Assembly (NCBI RefSeq): GCF_014640255.1
Contig: NZ_BMGP01000006.1
Span: 124,001 to 188,000, forward strand
Source: Subtercola lobariae
GTDB lineage: Bacteria; Actinomycetota; Actinomycetes; Actinomycetales; Microbacteriaceae
DNA: 64,000 nt
Direction: 5' to 3'
Below the pieces are notes generated by a model. The model ran no database searches. It saw only the letters and a program-made list of their open reading frames with translations, and was not told the origin of the DNA. Position 1 is the stretch's first letter. Every line of letters starts with the position of its first letter. Shown piece after piece: positions 54,385 through 63,145 of the stretch. The translations under genes and the position numbers were made by a program.

Positions 54385-56166
54385 CTATGCACTGGCCAAG
54401 CGTTGCGCGAGGTCTCGGGCCTTGACGCGCGCTCCGTCGATGACATAGGCCAGGCCGGTTCCCGAAATCCACGCGCCCACTACCTCGAGCCCCGGATGCC
54501 CGTGCACGGCCTCCACGAGCTCATCGACCCGGGCGCGGTGGCCCACCGTCGCGAAGGCGAGCGAGTCGCGCCACTCGGTCAGGGCGAACCCGCGCACTTG
54601 GCCTTGCCGCAGCTCGACGCCGAGCAGGGTGCTCGCGTCGGCGAGCGCTTGCTCGCGGGTGACCGCCGGGGCTGTGCGGCTGGCGGGCGCGGCAGCGTCG
54701 GCGGTGGTCGTGTCGGGGGCGAACGCCATCCGCGCATCCCGTAGCTGTTGGCCGCCGCGACCGTAGGAGAGGCGCACCATGTGGCGGCCCGGCCCGGCGT
54801 CTCGGGCGAGCCATGGCCACTTCGCGGTGGCATGGGTCAGCGCCTTCGCCCCGACCGTCGTCACGTCTTCGGCCACCAGAACACCCGTGCCACGCGGAGC
54901 AGCGTCGAGTTCGGGTGCGTCGAGCACCAGCGTCGCGAGCGTCACCACACTCGACCCGGGCCACCCCGTGGCCGTGGTCAGGCGGGTGAGGTCTGATTCG
55001 AGAGGCGCTTCGCCGCTGAGCTTGGCCTCGACCGAGGGCTTCGGGCCTGCGTCAGCCGCGCCGCGCAAGAGGTCGAGCGCGGCGCGAAACCCGGCCGCGA
55101 CCACCACCCCGTGCGAGCCGAGCACGGTCTCGTCGTCGAGCACGGTCATCCACTCGGCTGCGCCATCAGACGCCGACGGTACTCGCCGGATGCTCCGCAC
55201 GCCCACCCCGAGCTGCACGTCGACGCCGAGCCGTTCGCAGTCGGCCAGCAGGGCCTCGACGAGCCGGTACATGCCCCCGTCGATGCCGCCGACGGCAGCC
55301 CCGGGCGCCAGCCCGACTGGTCGCGCGCGCCCCACTGCCGCGGCTCCGACCGGAGTAGCGTCGACCGGCCTAGCGTCGGCCGGAGTAGCGGCGGCCGACC
55401 TAGCGATGCCCGAGATGTCACTCGAGGCAGCCGCACTGGATGCTTGCGAGCGCGCGGATAGGCCCGCGTTGGCAGGAGATTCGCCAGCGGGGTCGCCTGC
55501 GATGTCGGGGCGGCCACCGCCAGCCGCCGGCGTGGAGGCGCCACCGCGACGCGCGATGAGTGACATCACGGCGCCAGAGAGCGAACCCTGGTTCGTCATG
55601 GCGGTGGTGAGTCCGGGGGCGACGGCGTGAACATCCACCAGGTCTGGGTGGGCCGAATGCACGCCCGAAACCACCGGCGCCACGAGCCTGTCGAGCACTT
55701 TCGAGCCCATGCGGCGGCGCACCAGGTCGCCTAAATCGGTCTCTTTGCGCACCCGCACGAAGGGCAGCACGCGGTCGAGCTGTGCTCGCAGAGCGCCGGC
55801 CAGGCCGAGAATCGCGCGCACATCTGTGGCGAGCGGCACTCCCGGAATTCCGAGCAGCGTGTTCTTGGGCAGCGGCGCCGCCTTGTTCTGCAGTTGCAGC
55901 CAGGCCCCGCGCGAATTCGGCGAAACCAGGCTCTCGCCCAGCCCGAGCTCGGTGAGAAACGCGGCCACTGTGCCGCCGCGGGTGGCGAAACTCTCCGCCC
56001 CGCTATCGAGGCGGATGCCCGCAACCACGTGCGTCGCAACACACCCCCCGGCGTGCTCAGCCGCGTCGAGAACCGTCACCGCGAAACCCGCACGGGCTAG
56101 CTCGCGGGCAGCGACCAGGCCGCCCACGCCCGCGCCGACCACGACGACGCTCTTCTGCAGCACCAC
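54385..56166 (-). CDS. cgoX: Coproporphyrinogen III oxidase (HemY/HemG type) with a large insert
   Basis: A 593-residue FAD enzyme. VVVVGAGVGGLVAARELARA binds FAD; GAESFATRGG, LLGIPGVPLATDVRAILG, APVVSGVHSAHPDLVDV and the C-terminal GAWISGTGLAYVIDGAR are family motifs. Homologues are about 460-500 residues; the surplus is an Ala/Pro/Ser-rich insert at about 208-292 just before GGIDGGMYRLVEALL. It oxidises coproporphyrinogen III to coproporphyrin III. The start codon is GTG 56166 or 56163; no ribosome site settles it. Confidence 0.93.
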   Translation of the reverse strand: MVLQKSVVVVGAGVGGLVAARELARAGFAVTVLDAAEHAGGCVATHVVAGIRLDSGAESFATRGGTVAAFLTELGLGESLVSPNSRGAWLQLQNKAAPLPKNTLLGIPGVPLATDVRAILGLAGALRAQLDRVLPFVRVRKETDLGDLVRRRMGSKVLDRLVAPVVSGVHSAHPDLVDVHAVAPGLTTAMTNQGSLSGAVMSLIARRGGASTPAAGGGRPDIAGDPAGESPANAGLSARSQASSAAASSDISGIARSAAATPADARPVDATPVGAAAVGRARPVGLAPGAAVGGIDGGMYRLVEALLADCERLGVDVQLGVGVRSIRRVPSASDGAAEWMTVLDDETVLGSHGVVVAAGFRAALDLLRGAADAGPKPSVEAKLSGEAPLESDLTRLTTATGWPGSSVVTLATLVLDAPELDAAPRGTGVLVAEDVTTVGAKALTHATAKWPWLARDAGPGRHMVRLSYGRGGQQLRDARMAFAPDTTTADAAAPASRTAPAVTREQALADASTLLGVELRQGQVRGFALTEWRDSLAFATVGHRARVDELVEAVHGHPGLEVVGAWISGTGLAYVIDGARVKARDLAQRLASA

Positions 56167-57446: not shown

Positions 57447-57520
57447 CTCGGCGGCGACTTCGCGTGTGTGTGATTCACTACTTCTATGACACTAATTGAT
57501 ATTTCCTTACCTTCTGACTG

Positions 57521-57536
57521 GTACGATAAGTCGTAC
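57521..57536. promoter_or_regulatory. Palindromic operator upstream of yefM-yoeB
   Basis: GTACGATAAGTCGTAC has perfect 6-base arms around TAAG, 22 bases before the antitoxin start. YefM proteins bind palindromes overlapping their own promoter; TTGATA at 57496 may be a -35 and TACGAT at 57522 a -10, though with wide spacing. Confidence 0.5.
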
Positions 57537-57557
57537 GCATTCGAAGGAGGCTCCGCC

Positions 57558-57806
57558 ATGGCAATCACGGCATCTGAGGCACGAAAAAGTCTGTTCGGGC
57601 TCATCGAGCAAGTGAACGACGACCGCATCGAGATTGAAATCACCTCGAAGCGCGGTAGCGCGATTCTGATGTCTCGGGCCGAATACGACGCTATTCGTGA
57701 AACCTCCTACCTGCTCCGCTCGCTTCCCAACGCCGAAGCTCTCGTGCGCAGCCTGAACGAGGCGCACGCCGGTCAGGTGGAGGAGCACGAACTCGACCGA
57801 TCATGA
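57558..57806 (+). CDS. yefM: YefM/Phd family antitoxin
   Basis: An 82-residue antitoxin. MAITASEARKSLFGLIEQVN is the DNA-binding N-terminus; ITSKRGSAILMSRAEYDAI the core; the C-terminal half wraps the toxin. The ATG at 57558 is chosen because AAGGAGG sits seven bases before it; a frame opening upstream is not needed. The stop overlaps the yoeB ATG by four bases. Confidence 0.93.
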   Translation: MAITASEARKSLFGLIEQVNDDRIEIEITSKRGSAILMSRAEYDAIRETSYLLRSLPNAEALVRSLNEAHAGQVEEHELDRS

Positions 57807-58063
57807 AGCTCGTCTTCACGCCCACCGCCTGGGCGGAATACACGCAGTGGCAGAAGACCGATCGAACGATGCTTTCGCGAGTGAATCGCCTCCTCGACGA
57901 CACGTTGCGGCATCCTGCAACGGGAATCGGCAAACCCGAGACGCTTCGCTATGACCTCTCTGGCGTGTGGTCGCGACGCATCACCGAAGAGCACAGGCTG
58001 GTCTACCTCGCTGACGACGAGAAGGTCACTGTCATCCAGTGCCGATTTCACTACCAGCGCTGA
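57803..58063 (+). CDS. yoeB: YoeB (Txe) family mRNA interferase toxin
   Basis: An 86-residue toxin. Catalytic residues of E. coli YoeB are all conserved at the same numbers: Glu46 (GKPE), Arg65 (EEHR), His83 and Tyr84 (FHY). It cleaves mRNA on the translating ribosome and is neutralised by YefM. The pair looks intact and functional, and lies between hemE and hemA, which are divergently arranged. Confidence 0.94.
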   Translation: MKLVFTPTAWAEYTQWQKTDRTMLSRVNRLLDDTLRHPATGIGKPETLRYDLSGVWSRRITEEHRLVYLADDEKVTVIQCRFHYQR

Positions 58064-60233: not shown

Positions 60234-61130
60234 TCAGTACACGTACTCGAGAATGTCGGTGCCCAGGGTGCGCATTCCGTCAAGCACAGCGAGCCGGCCG
60301 GTGAGCTCGGCGTCGTTGAACCGCATGGTCACCGCATAGGCCACGCTCGCCCGGGGCCCGCGCAGCACCCCCGCCTCCGAACGGATGCCCGGCCCAGACC
60401 CCGTCTTATTCACCAGCAGCAACCCGTGGTCGGAGTGCAGGTGTGTCAGCGGATCGAGCCCGAACGCACTCGATACCATCGACAGATCGGCGCCGAGCCC
60501 TAGCCAGGCGAGAACCTGCTGGCTGGTCGCCACATCGACCACAGCACCCTCGGCCAGGTTCCGAAAGAGCGTGGCGAGTTCGCGGGCCGACCCCACCGAG
60601 AAGTGCGGTGCGTCATCCGGCCCGCGGTGATCGCGAACCGTGTCGAGCAAGAAGGTCCGCGACAACCCGAGCGCCTCGCCGCGAGCGCGCACGGCGTCGA
60701 TTCCCACTCGCCGCAGCAGCACGTTCGTGGCGAGATTGTCGCTTGTCGCTCCCACCAGCACCGCGAGATCGGCGACCGGCAGCGTTGGCACTTGCAGGTG
60801 CTGCCACAGCCCCATCTCAGCGGCGGAGTCGACCACCGTTCGTTCGAGCAGACCGTGGGCCGAGGCATCCCGTTGCGTCAGGCGCGCCGCCACCTCGATG
60901 AGAAGCAGCACCTTGCCGAGCCCCGCCGTCGGCACCGACAGGTGATCGTCGATGGAGAACAGCACCTTCTCGGTCGACACATCGATGGCCGACGCCGTGA
61001 TCTGCACCCCCGAGAGCGCAAGATTCGTCAGCGAAACGAAGCCGCGCCGAAACGTGTCGGCGTCGTGCGCCTCGGCCGACCTGCGCCCGCTGGGCAGCTC
61101 AGGCCGGTCGCGACGCGAATTCTTGCGCAT
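60234..61130 (-). CDS. Class A beta-lactamase-like serine-hydrolase fold protein lacking the serine
   Basis: A 298-residue protein. Two of three penicillin-interacting motifs are intact: SDN at 130-132 and KTG at 242-244. Where SxxK should be, the sequence reads SVPTAGLGKVLL, so Gly70 replaces the nucleophilic Ser while Lys73 stays. No Glu166-type ExxLN motif is visible. No signal peptide; N-terminus is very basic (MRKNSRRDR). So it is probably cytoplasmic and not a working beta-lactamase; a binding role or another chemistry is more likely. Start ATG 61130. Confidence 0.8.
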   Translation of the reverse strand: MRKNSRRDRPELPSGRRSAEAHDADTFRRGFVSLTNLALSGVQITASAIDVSTEKVLFSIDDHLSVPTAGLGKVLLLIEVAARLTQRDASAHGLLERTVVDSAAEMGLWQHLQVPTLPVADLAVLVGATSDNLATNVLLRRVGIDAVRARGEALGLSRTFLLDTVRDHRGPDDAPHFSVGSARELATLFRNLAEGAVVDVATSQQVLAWLGLGADLSMVSSAFGLDPLTHLHSDHGLLLVNKTGSGPGIRSEAGVLRGPRASVAYAVTMRFNDAELTGRLAVLDGMRTLGTDILEYVY

Positions 61131-61144
61131 GGGGTTCTGACCTC

Positions 61145-63145
61145 TCACCAAATGGTGACACGTTCTTCTTCTGGTAGCCAGAGCTTGTCGCTCTCAGTCA
61201 CGTCGAAAGCGCTGTAGAACTCCGTGATGTTGCGCACGATCTGGTTGCACCGAAACTCGTTGGGCGAGTGCGGGTCGATGGCCAGCAGCCGAATTGCCTC
61301 TTCATCGCGCGACTTCTGTTGCCAGGCCTGCGCCCACGACAAGAAGAACCGCTCGGCGCCGGTGAGCCCGTCGATCACAGGAGGTTCTGACCCGCCGAGC
61401 GAAATCAGGTAGGCCTTCCAGGCGATGCCGAGGCCGCCGAGGTCACCGATGTTCTCGCCGATGGTCAGCGCGCCGTTCACGTGCTGATCGGGTACTTGCT
61501 GAGGAGCGAGAGCGTCATACTGCTCGATCAGCGAGGCCGTGAGCTTTTCAAACGCTTCGCGGTCTTCGGATGTCCACCAGTCGGTCAATCGACCGTCGCC
61601 GTCGAATCGCGAACCCTGATCGTCGAACCCGTGGCCGATCTCATGGCCGATGACAGCACCGATTGCGCCGTAGTTCGCAGCGGCATCCCGACCCTCGTCG
61701 AAGAACGGGTATTGCAGTATCGCCGCCGGAAAGACGATCTCGTTGAACCCGGGGTTGTAGTACGCGTTGATGGTCTGCGGGGTCATGAACCATTCATCGC
61801 GGTCGAGCGGTTTACCCACCTTGCCGAGTTCGCGCTGAAACTCGAATTCGCTGGTGGCACGCACATTTGCGAAGAGGCTCTCGGCGTCGAGGGCGAGCGC
61901 CGAGTAGTCGCGCCAGGTCACCGGAAAACCGATTTTCGGTGTGAACTTGTCGAGTTTCTCGAGCGCTCTAGTGCGGGTTGCGGGGGTCATCCAGGCCAGA
62001 TCGGTGATCGACTGACGGTATGCCTCGATGAGGTTGGCCACCAGAACATCCATCGCGGACTTGGCCGTCTGCGGAAAATATCGCTCGACATAAATACGAC
62101 CCACGGCTTCGCCCATGGCACCCTCGACCAGCGAGACCCCGCGCTTCCACCGGTCGCGCATCGACGGGGTGCCGGTGAGCGTGCGGCCGTAGAAGTCGAA
62201 GTTCTCCTCCACGAAGGCGGCGGGCAGCAGGGCGGCTGCGCCGTGAATCACCTTCCAGGCGAGCCAGTCTTTCCACGCCTCGAGGCGGTCTTCGGTGATC
62301 AGCGAAGCGAGCCCTTCGAGAAAGCTCGGCTCCCGCACCACGATCTCGTCGAACACTCCGGCGGGGGCATCGAGGGCGTCGCGCCAGAGCGTGAGCGCGC
62401 CCGCGGGCGACGAGTCGGCCGTACCGCTTTCGTAGAGGGCGAGCAGGTCGGCCCAGGAGAAGAGGTTGTAGGTGGCTTGCGCGTCGCGCGTCTTGACGTT
62501 GTCCCAGTGGTGCGACGCGATGGCGGTTTCGAGGTCGAAAACGCGCTGCGCCCGGGTGGGGGCGCTACCTTCGCCCGCTTCAGCGCCGCTTCCGGAGCCG
62601 GTGAGCTCGAACATCCGCTGCACATGATTCAGGTAGGCGTCGCGAATGCTCTGAAACTTCTCTTCGCGGTAGTAACTCTCGTTCGGCAGCGAGATGCCGC
62701 CCTGGTTCAGAAAAACGAGGTAACGCTCGGGGTTTCCCGGGTCGTTGTCGACGAACGTACCGAAGAAGCCGCCGACTCCTTGCCGTTCGAGCTTGCCGAC
62801 CGTGCGCACGAAGTCTTCGACGCTGGCGATGGCGTCGACAAGCGCGAGCTGACCGTCGATGGGCGTGGTGCCGAGCGACTCGATGCGCTCCTCATCCATG
62901 AAGCTGGTGTAGAGGTCGCCGAATTTGCGCTCTTCGGTGCCCTCTGCGGCACCCTGCGCCTCGATGATGATCCCTTGCACGGCCTGCTCGGCGGCCTCGG
63001 CGAGCAGGTAGAACGAGCCCCACCGCGCCTTGTCGTCGGGAATCTCGGTTTCGGCAAGCCATTTGCCGTTCACGTGCCTGAAGAGGTCGTCTTGCGCGCG
63101 AATCGTGGGGTCAAGGTCAGCAGTATCGATACCCGAAGAGGTCAT
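61145..63145 (-). CDS. M13 family zinc metallopeptidase (PepO/neprilysin type)
   Basis: A 666-residue peptidase. The zinc motif is His501-Glu-Ile-Gly-His505 in VIGHEIGHGFDDQGSRFDGD; ENIGDLGGLGIAWKAYL gives the third ligand, NAYYNPGFNEIVFPAAILQY precedes it, and the C-terminal Trp is typical. No signal peptide, as usual for actinobacterial cytosolic PepO. Stop is 14 bases before the start of the beta-lactamase-like gene, so they are probably co-transcribed. Confidence 0.94.
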   Translation of the reverse strand: MTSSGIDTADLDPTIRAQDDLFRHVNGKWLAETEIPDDKARWGSFYLLAEAAEQAVQGIIIEAQGAAEGTEERKFGDLYTSFMDEERIESLGTTPIDGQLALVDAIASVEDFVRTVGKLERQGVGGFFGTFVDNDPGNPERYLVFLNQGGISLPNESYYREEKFQSIRDAYLNHVQRMFELTGSGSGAEAGEGSAPTRAQRVFDLETAIASHHWDNVKTRDAQATYNLFSWADLLALYESGTADSSPAGALTLWRDALDAPAGVFDEIVVREPSFLEGLASLITEDRLEAWKDWLAWKVIHGAAALLPAAFVEENFDFYGRTLTGTPSMRDRWKRGVSLVEGAMGEAVGRIYVERYFPQTAKSAMDVLVANLIEAYRQSITDLAWMTPATRTRALEKLDKFTPKIGFPVTWRDYSALALDAESLFANVRATSEFEFQRELGKVGKPLDRDEWFMTPQTINAYYNPGFNEIVFPAAILQYPFFDEGRDAAANYGAIGAVIGHEIGHGFDDQGSRFDGDGRLTDWWTSEDREAFEKLTASLIEQYDALAPQQVPDQHVNGALTIGENIGDLGGLGIAWKAYLISLGGSEPPVIDGLTGAERFFLSWAQAWQQKSRDEEAIRLLAIDPHSPNEFRCNQIVRNITEFYSAFDVTESDKLWLPEEERVTIW

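Follow-up and report, generated by a model that had tools for sequence, protein, structure and literature searches.

In Subtercola lobariae, a gene directly behind that of an M13 metallopeptidase, and on the same strand, encodes a protein of the class A β-lactamase fold in which the nucleophilic Ser70 is replaced by glycine. Gly70 is fixed in a clade of Subtercola under purifying selection, and the assignment of the protein as a pseudoenzyme is well supported; a protein missing this nucleophile would be expected to lack activity. Among the sampled homologues, the nucleophile has changed repeatedly. Conservation of the protein and its linkage to the M13 gene suggest, tentatively, that it serves the peptidase as a binding partner or modulator.

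The Gly70 protein and its predicted fold

The gene lies in a window of 64,000 nucleotides, the whole stretch of DNA analysed here, and its reading frame is intact from the ATG start to the stop codon (Table 1). Counted from this ATG, residue numbers by chance nearly equal the standard class A numbering. The protein matches PF13354 (Beta-lactamase2), its only Pfam family at E 0.1, with an E-value of 9e-31 and a score of 107.3 bits, above the cutoff of 22. Against the NCBIfam equivalog bla_class_A it scores 23.3 bits, below the cutoff of 200. Of the features of a class A enzyme, the protein possesses Lys73, the SDN motif, and the KTG motif, and lacks Ser70 and Glu166. The preliminary description had presented it as class A-like with Gly at position 70, and the PF13354 match, the GGG codon, and the class A fold of the model bear this out; the retention of Lys73, SDN (130-132), and KTG, also claimed there, is confirmed in the translated sequence.

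The omega-loop region of the protein reads LLDTVRDHRGPDDAP and is without Glu166, as had been proposed earlier. Profile alignment with LRA-5 and with its V166E mutant chain puts Val165 at the position of Glu166, a column in which none of 207 ingroup rows has Glu (V in 139, F in 37, A in 26, T in 2, and M, N, and I in 1 each). Asp is frequent two positions further on, with D167 present in 176 of the 207. Within the same region, D163, R166, R169, G170, D172, A174, and P175 show no variation across the 207 rows, P171 is found in 206, and D173 in 202.

No hydrophobic N-terminal segment is seen in the protein, whose best 15-residue Kyte-Doolittle mean is 0.59, in agreement with the original reading that an export signal is absent. 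By the same measure, 1 of 218 homologue loci attains 1.6 and 17 attain 1.2, with readings that begin upstream of the probable start. The protein is predicted to be cytoplasmic.

An AlphaFold model, built from an alignment of 41 sequences, has a mean pLDDT of 76.6 and a pTM of 0.80, with low confidence in the omega-loop region. The model has the class A three-dimensional fold when compared with 4EWF, which is its top structural match (Z 27.0, rmsd 2.5, 253 aligned residues), with other class A chains tying within 1. LRA-5 (8EO5) aligns with Z 26.4 and rmsd 2.9 over 257 residues, and PBP-A (2J7V) with Z 25.7 and rmsd 3.0 over 254, many others being close behind. The fold is also modelled for a Microbacterium member without S70, K73, S130, and N132 (pLDDT 73.7; against 4EWF, Z 25.7 and rmsd 2.7 over 245 residues).

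Table 1. Features of the Gly70 gene and the adjoining M13 gene, in window positions.
Feature	Position	Strand	Basis or remark
Coding sequence of class A β-lactamase/PBP-A fold with Gly70	60234..61130	(-)	298 aa from ATG at 61130; TTG at 61151 would give 305 aa
Codon GGG, Gly replacing nucleophile Ser70	60921..60923	(-)	Sequence
Lys73 codon, retained	60912..60914	(-)	Sequence
Ser130-Asp131-Asn132, retained	60735..60743	(-)	Sequence
Omega-loop-region motif, D163 to P175 (D163, V165 as Glu166 equivalent, R166, R169-G-P-D-D-A-P175)	60606..60644	(-)	Alignment
Lys-Thr-Gly (242-244 counted from ATG), retained	60399..60407	(-)	Sequence
M13 metallopeptidase gene; HEIGH motif intact; by inspection, no export signal	61145..63145	(-)	Pfam, sequence; 14 bp upstream of the Gly70 gene, same strand

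Recurrent loss of Ser70

Within Subtercola, Gly70 is found in 4 of 12 genomes (G000, G002, G005, G009), each time as codon GGG, and it is thus fixed in a clade. The other 8 genomes carry Ser70, encoded by AGC or AGT. The preliminary description had called for homologues to be checked for the same Gly; the result is mixed, as the Gly marks a clade and not a single mutant, and sister species do have Ser. This presence of Ser in sister species is what a sequencing error or a recent single mutant would predict, an explanation left with almost no probability by the GGG codon common to four genomes, the dS of 0.67-0.81 in three of the 6 pairs within the clade, and the recurrence of the change across many genera. 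A sequencing error or lone mutant is ruled out by the presence of GGG in four assemblies, one of the three further GGG genomes being a single-contig assembly, and a pseudogene is ruled out by the open frames and purifying selection. In the Gly clade, the median dN/dS (NG86) is 0.048 over 6 pairs (range 0.026-0.066), and in the Ser clade 0.088 over 28 pairs, with a range of 0.027-0.163 that overlaps that of the Gly clade. K73, S130, D131, N132, and K234 are retained in all 4 Gly rows, and KTG is complete in 3, with KSG in L004. The clade looks like an early stage of decay in which only the nucleophile is gone. A loss fixed in a clade under purifying selection agrees with the earlier view of the protein as a conserved pseudoenzyme, which is further supported by the approximately 16 changes of Ser70 in the sampled family.

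A match to the window protein is present in 286 of 398 sampled family genomes and in 65 of 85 genera, and is absent from 112 of the 398. In 25 of the 286 matching genomes the best E-value exceeds 1e-60, and several of these 25 instead have a paralogue that is unlinked. Sampling across the whole phylum gives 22 matches in 296, most of them weak. Among plasmid records, 6 of 72,556 match, each with less than 60% identity (three in Streptomyces and one each in Nonomuraea, Rhodothermus, and Aureimonas). Homologues for closer comparison were chosen from search listings and a pattern search seeded with the window protein, and loss-rich genera were oversampled. The 229 loci yielded 220 distinct proteins once nine duplicates had been dropped before alignment. 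Removal of 11 outgroup rows left 209 ingroup rows, and removal of two further rows from genus g17 left 207 for column counts. A second piece (L029), the 95-base L163, and the repeats L232 and L233 were left out. Two g17 loci (L026 and L123) are M13-adjacent orthologues without the RGPDDAP region and KTG, which are near-invariant elsewhere. The locus L071 (JASDDH010000028.1) comes from a record titled Planococcus and holds a Microbacterium-type copy adjoining M13; the assembly is probably mislabelled or contaminated.

Ser70 is absent from 91 of the 209 distinct ingroup homologues and retained in 118, figures that, like those related to them, show recurrence and not prevalence because the sample is enriched for loss-rich genera. 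All five of S70, K73, S130, N132, and K234 (the KTG lysine) are present in 102 of the 209. Loss does not always begin with the serine, since 16 of the 118 Ser-bearing rows have already lost another of the five. At position 70, Gly is the replacement in 72 of the 91, and Gln, Glu, Asp, His, and Thr are found in the others. On a tree of the sampled family from which the five catalytic columns were excluded, parsimony counts 16 changes of Ser70; if only loss is allowed, there are 17 maximal Ser-less clades. A single common Ser-less clade is rejected by the AU test (p 6e-84) on a 44-row subset of our own choosing, for which the tree has 10 changes. Among 56 coded genera, 8 hold both states, nine are Ser-less only, and 39 have Ser only. 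The 16 changes at S70 compare with at most 7 at 58 other columns, a comparison that is partly circular, as those columns were picked in Ser-bearing rows.

The ancestor of the family was most likely Ser-bearing, since S70, K73, SDN, and KTG are retained in 11 of 11 outgroup rows, and more distant relatives outside the M13-linked group have Ser70 in all 19 loci in which the position is covered, of 23 examined. Around outgroup and distant loci, no M13 gene is present in the flank examined, which is about 1.5 kb for most. Five genomes (L114, L115, L116, L117, and L121) each carry two tandem paralogues with SxxK and SDN intact, and KTG where covered; no M13 gene is present in the flank examined, and the genomes yielded no homologue closer to the window protein. 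Since even the Ser-bearing ingroup members are without Glu166, they resemble LRA-5 or PBP-A and not true β-lactamases.

To compare retained and lost positions, we took the 114 columns that at least 90% of Ser-bearing rows conserve and followed them into the Ser-less rows, in which the median column has a retention of 94.5%. Retention is lowest at S70 (0, by definition), followed by S130 (0.09), K73 (0.14), N132 (0.26), and V165 (0.31). Three non-catalytic columns are also poorly kept, namely L228 (0.33), T68 (0.42), and R83 (0.42), and the KTG lysine is moderately depleted, being kept in 60%. These percentages are not independent because 46 of the 91 Ser-less rows come from a single clade of the Microbacterium type; with sequence weighting, retention is similar (K73 0.14, S130 0.10, N132 0.31, K234 0.53). 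Deeper Ser-less relatives have V, T, R, or another residue at position 73. In the ingroup, 45 of the 209 rows retain K234 as the sole one of the five catalytic residues, and 19 retain none. Co-loss of K73, S130, N132, or K234 with S70 does not reach significance over 9 independent pairs on well-supported branches (median p 0.125-0.25), as too few pairs differ, with the direction nearly always the same. Near-invariant in both forms are D131, W109, D163, R166, R169-G-P-D-D-A-P175, W209, H230, H235, R250, and E295. As losses cluster in the catalytic columns and both the near-invariant columns and the modelled fold persist, selection holds the fold and a set of non-catalytic residues rather than the catalytic ensemble.

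Linkage to an M13 metallopeptidase gene

The M13 family, which includes the mycobacterial Zmp1, is represented in the window by a gene, unmentioned in the preliminary description, immediately upstream of the Gly70 gene. The two probably form a transcription unit of their own, because the flanking genes are divergent upstream (a MATE-type transporter-like gene, judged by eye from its translation) and convergent downstream (a GNAT gene). Elsewhere in the window, a YefM/Phd-type antitoxin and YoeB toxin pair (57486-58063, plus strand) sits among haem-biosynthesis genes, between a gene that is hemE-like by eye and the gene for glutamyl-tRNA reductase. A flavin amine oxidoreductase, protoporphyrinogen-oxidase-like by eye, is encoded at 54385-56166 on the minus strand and has a long low-complexity stretch rich in Ala, Pro, and Ser in mid-protein.

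The same arrangement holds throughout most of the family. Among distinct ingroup loci with 600 bp or more of upstream flank (41 of the 209 had too little), a same-strand M13 match lies directly upstream, ending within 400 bp, in 81 of 82 Ser-less cases and in 77 of 86 Ser-bearing ones. Exceptions, in which M13 does not immediately precede the gene, are genus g98 (7 loci), g71 (1), g74 (1), and one locus of g84; in two g98 genomes examined, M13 occurs on the same strand at upstream distances of 3.6 and 9.5 kb. Of 179 loci examined for the HExxH motif of M13, 169 cover it and all 169 have it intact, as do all 99 aligned M13 proteins. No fusion of M13 with the β-lactamase-fold protein occurs in the 179 loci. 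M13 is present in 18 of 19 genomes without a match to the window protein, and in 30 of 31 genomes searched in all, and so the peptidase does not require the Gly70-family protein. M13 columns were also set against the presence of the partner, with 83 M13 proteins from genomes with it and 16 from genomes without it, there being only 4 changes in partner presence on the tree; like the search for fusions, this comparison yielded no support for a partnership. In one genome without a β-lactamase-fold match, two M13 metallopeptidase genes stand in tandem (L265, G034:C1:62700-68765).

Possible functions and known relatives

A binding or regulatory role, as suggested in the preliminary description, is plausible for the Gly70 protein. 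The account that we favour, with a confidence that stops slightly short of an even chance, is a protein retained for a function independent of catalysis, most likely that of binding to the M13 peptidase, or modulating it, in the cytoplasm. Gene linkage points to this partnership, and the role is placed ahead of others because the Gly70 gene is the second of a likely two-gene unit with M13. In the Subtercola Gly clade, the usual acyl-serine intermediate could not be formed, and the protein would descend from a Ser70-bearing ancestor that was already without Glu166. The selected function would not depend on catalysis: across the M13-linked family the nucleophile has changed approximately 16 times, often along with further catalytic residues in varying order, with the fold and a set of non-catalytic residues retained. 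The protein could act, for example, as a substrate-presenting, inhibitory, or stabilising subunit of M13; binding itself would have no need of an active site, and the neighbouring peptidase would be its likeliest target. Held more tentatively is the extension of this account to the whole M13-linked family, in which the class A fold would have taken on a role, independent of catalysis, as partner of a cytosolic M13 peptidase, after which the serine-hydrolase site would have been free to decay, as it did some 16 times, the Subtercola clade being at an early stage. Catalysis may matter in the Ser70-bearing members (118 of 209).

The pocket left behind by the lost serine could instead hold a ligand non-covalently, with the Gly form binding a D-Ala-type peptide, muropeptide, or β-lactam as a sensor or buffer. 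This is rather unlikely overall. The complete set of K73, S130, D131, N132, and K234 in the four Subtercola Gly rows, and of KTG in three, fits such a role, as does the crystallisation of LRA-5, itself without Glu166, with ceftazidime (available part of PMC12777564). The cytoplasmic location predicted for the protein speaks against a cell-wall ligand, however, and the pocket residues are also lost in other Ser-less lineages, so that the family as a whole has not preserved the pocket. As many Ser-less members are also without K73, S130, and N132, and sometimes K234, a β-lactam or muropeptide sensor is disfavoured family-wide; a pocket-binding sensor is possible for the Subtercola Gly clade and a poor account of the whole family.

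We likewise doubt that the protein is a dispensable enzyme under relaxed selection, with an ancestral DD-peptidase-like activity unneeded in some lineages and the protein heading for loss. The 112 family genomes without a match would agree with such a course, and dN/dS is raised in some Ser-less groups, up to 0.33 in single pairs. However, the medians of the seven Ser-less groups computed lie between 0.048 and 0.234 (g99, 0.216; g84, 0.234), the Subtercola Gly clade is below the Ser clade with overlapping ranges, and no in-frame stop occurs among the Microbacteriaceae matches listed. The near-invariant R169-P175 region in the 207 ingroup rows, the fold retained in the modelled Microbacterium member, and the concentration of change in the catalytic columns also argue against it. 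Least probable of the functional accounts is that the protein remains an enzyme and catalyses a different reaction via other residues, such as an invariant Asp, Arg, or His. Polar residues suitable for this are near-invariant in both forms (D131, D163, R166, R169, D172, H230, H235, R250, E295), but they are equally conserved in Ser-bearing forms and may be structural, and no motif of another enzyme class is recognisable in the protein, PF13354 being its sole Pfam match.

Known proteins resemble the window protein in part. LRA-5 (PDB 8EO5) shares the class A fold and has Val at the place of Glu166, aligned to Val165; in the available portion of its report, its activity without Glu166 is described as biologically insignificant, and it is treated as a β-lactamase precursor that binds ceftazidime (PMC12777564), whereas Gly70 distinguishes the window protein, in which no export signal is seen. 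PBP-A of Thermosynechococcus (PDB 2J7V) also has a class A-like fold, and the titles of its L158E mutant entries suggest that it has no Glu166 equivalent. The window protein is like the PBP-A type in having a class A fold without Glu166 and differs in having Gly70 in place of the active-site serine; PBP-A is an active DD-carboxypeptidase/endopeptidase according to the accessible text of PMC11189452, whereas the window protein is without the serine and shows no export signal. The Sphaerobacter thermophilus β-lactamase 4EWF (SPH-1 in the available passages of PMC12073871) is both the top structural match and the best sequence match among solved structures, with 20% identity over the structural alignment, and has SDN and KTG in the aligned stretch.

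Gly at the nucleophile is shared by 5IHV, the inactive class A protein of Burkholderia ambifaria MC40-6, which has an intact class A fold (available passages of PMC12073871). In 5IHV, Lys73 is replaced by Ala, giving a G-D-K triad, and the omega-loop column holds Glu (same passages), whereas the window protein keeps Lys73 and SDN and has no Glu166. The window protein is consequently outside the inactive class A group as defined in the available text, by Gly at the nucleophile and Ala at the base: it has the Gly and keeps Lys73 (PMC12073871). The 5IHV passages describe neither a link to M13 nor recurrence (PMC12073871). That 5IHV is not among the 50 entries listed as structural matches excludes nothing. 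In the open full-text literature, most subscription journals being outside this scope, no description was found of the M13-linked family, its recurrent inactivation, or its link to M13. Inactive class A folds are thus already known from 5IHV, as the available passages of PMC12073871 describe it, and it is the recurrence and the M13 link that appear new.

Relatives of the Gly70 protein are annotated as 'serine hydrolase' by fold, as in three of the six plasmid matches listed (H1, H2, H5), and H6 likewise. Across the family, the active site encoded by a single, mostly syntenic gene grades from intact to completely eroded, a natural experiment in the passage from enzyme to pseudoenzyme. The family may also represent an unrecognised partner of bacterial M13 peptidases and, if the partnership is true, the near-invariant non-catalytic residues would be direct targets for testing it.
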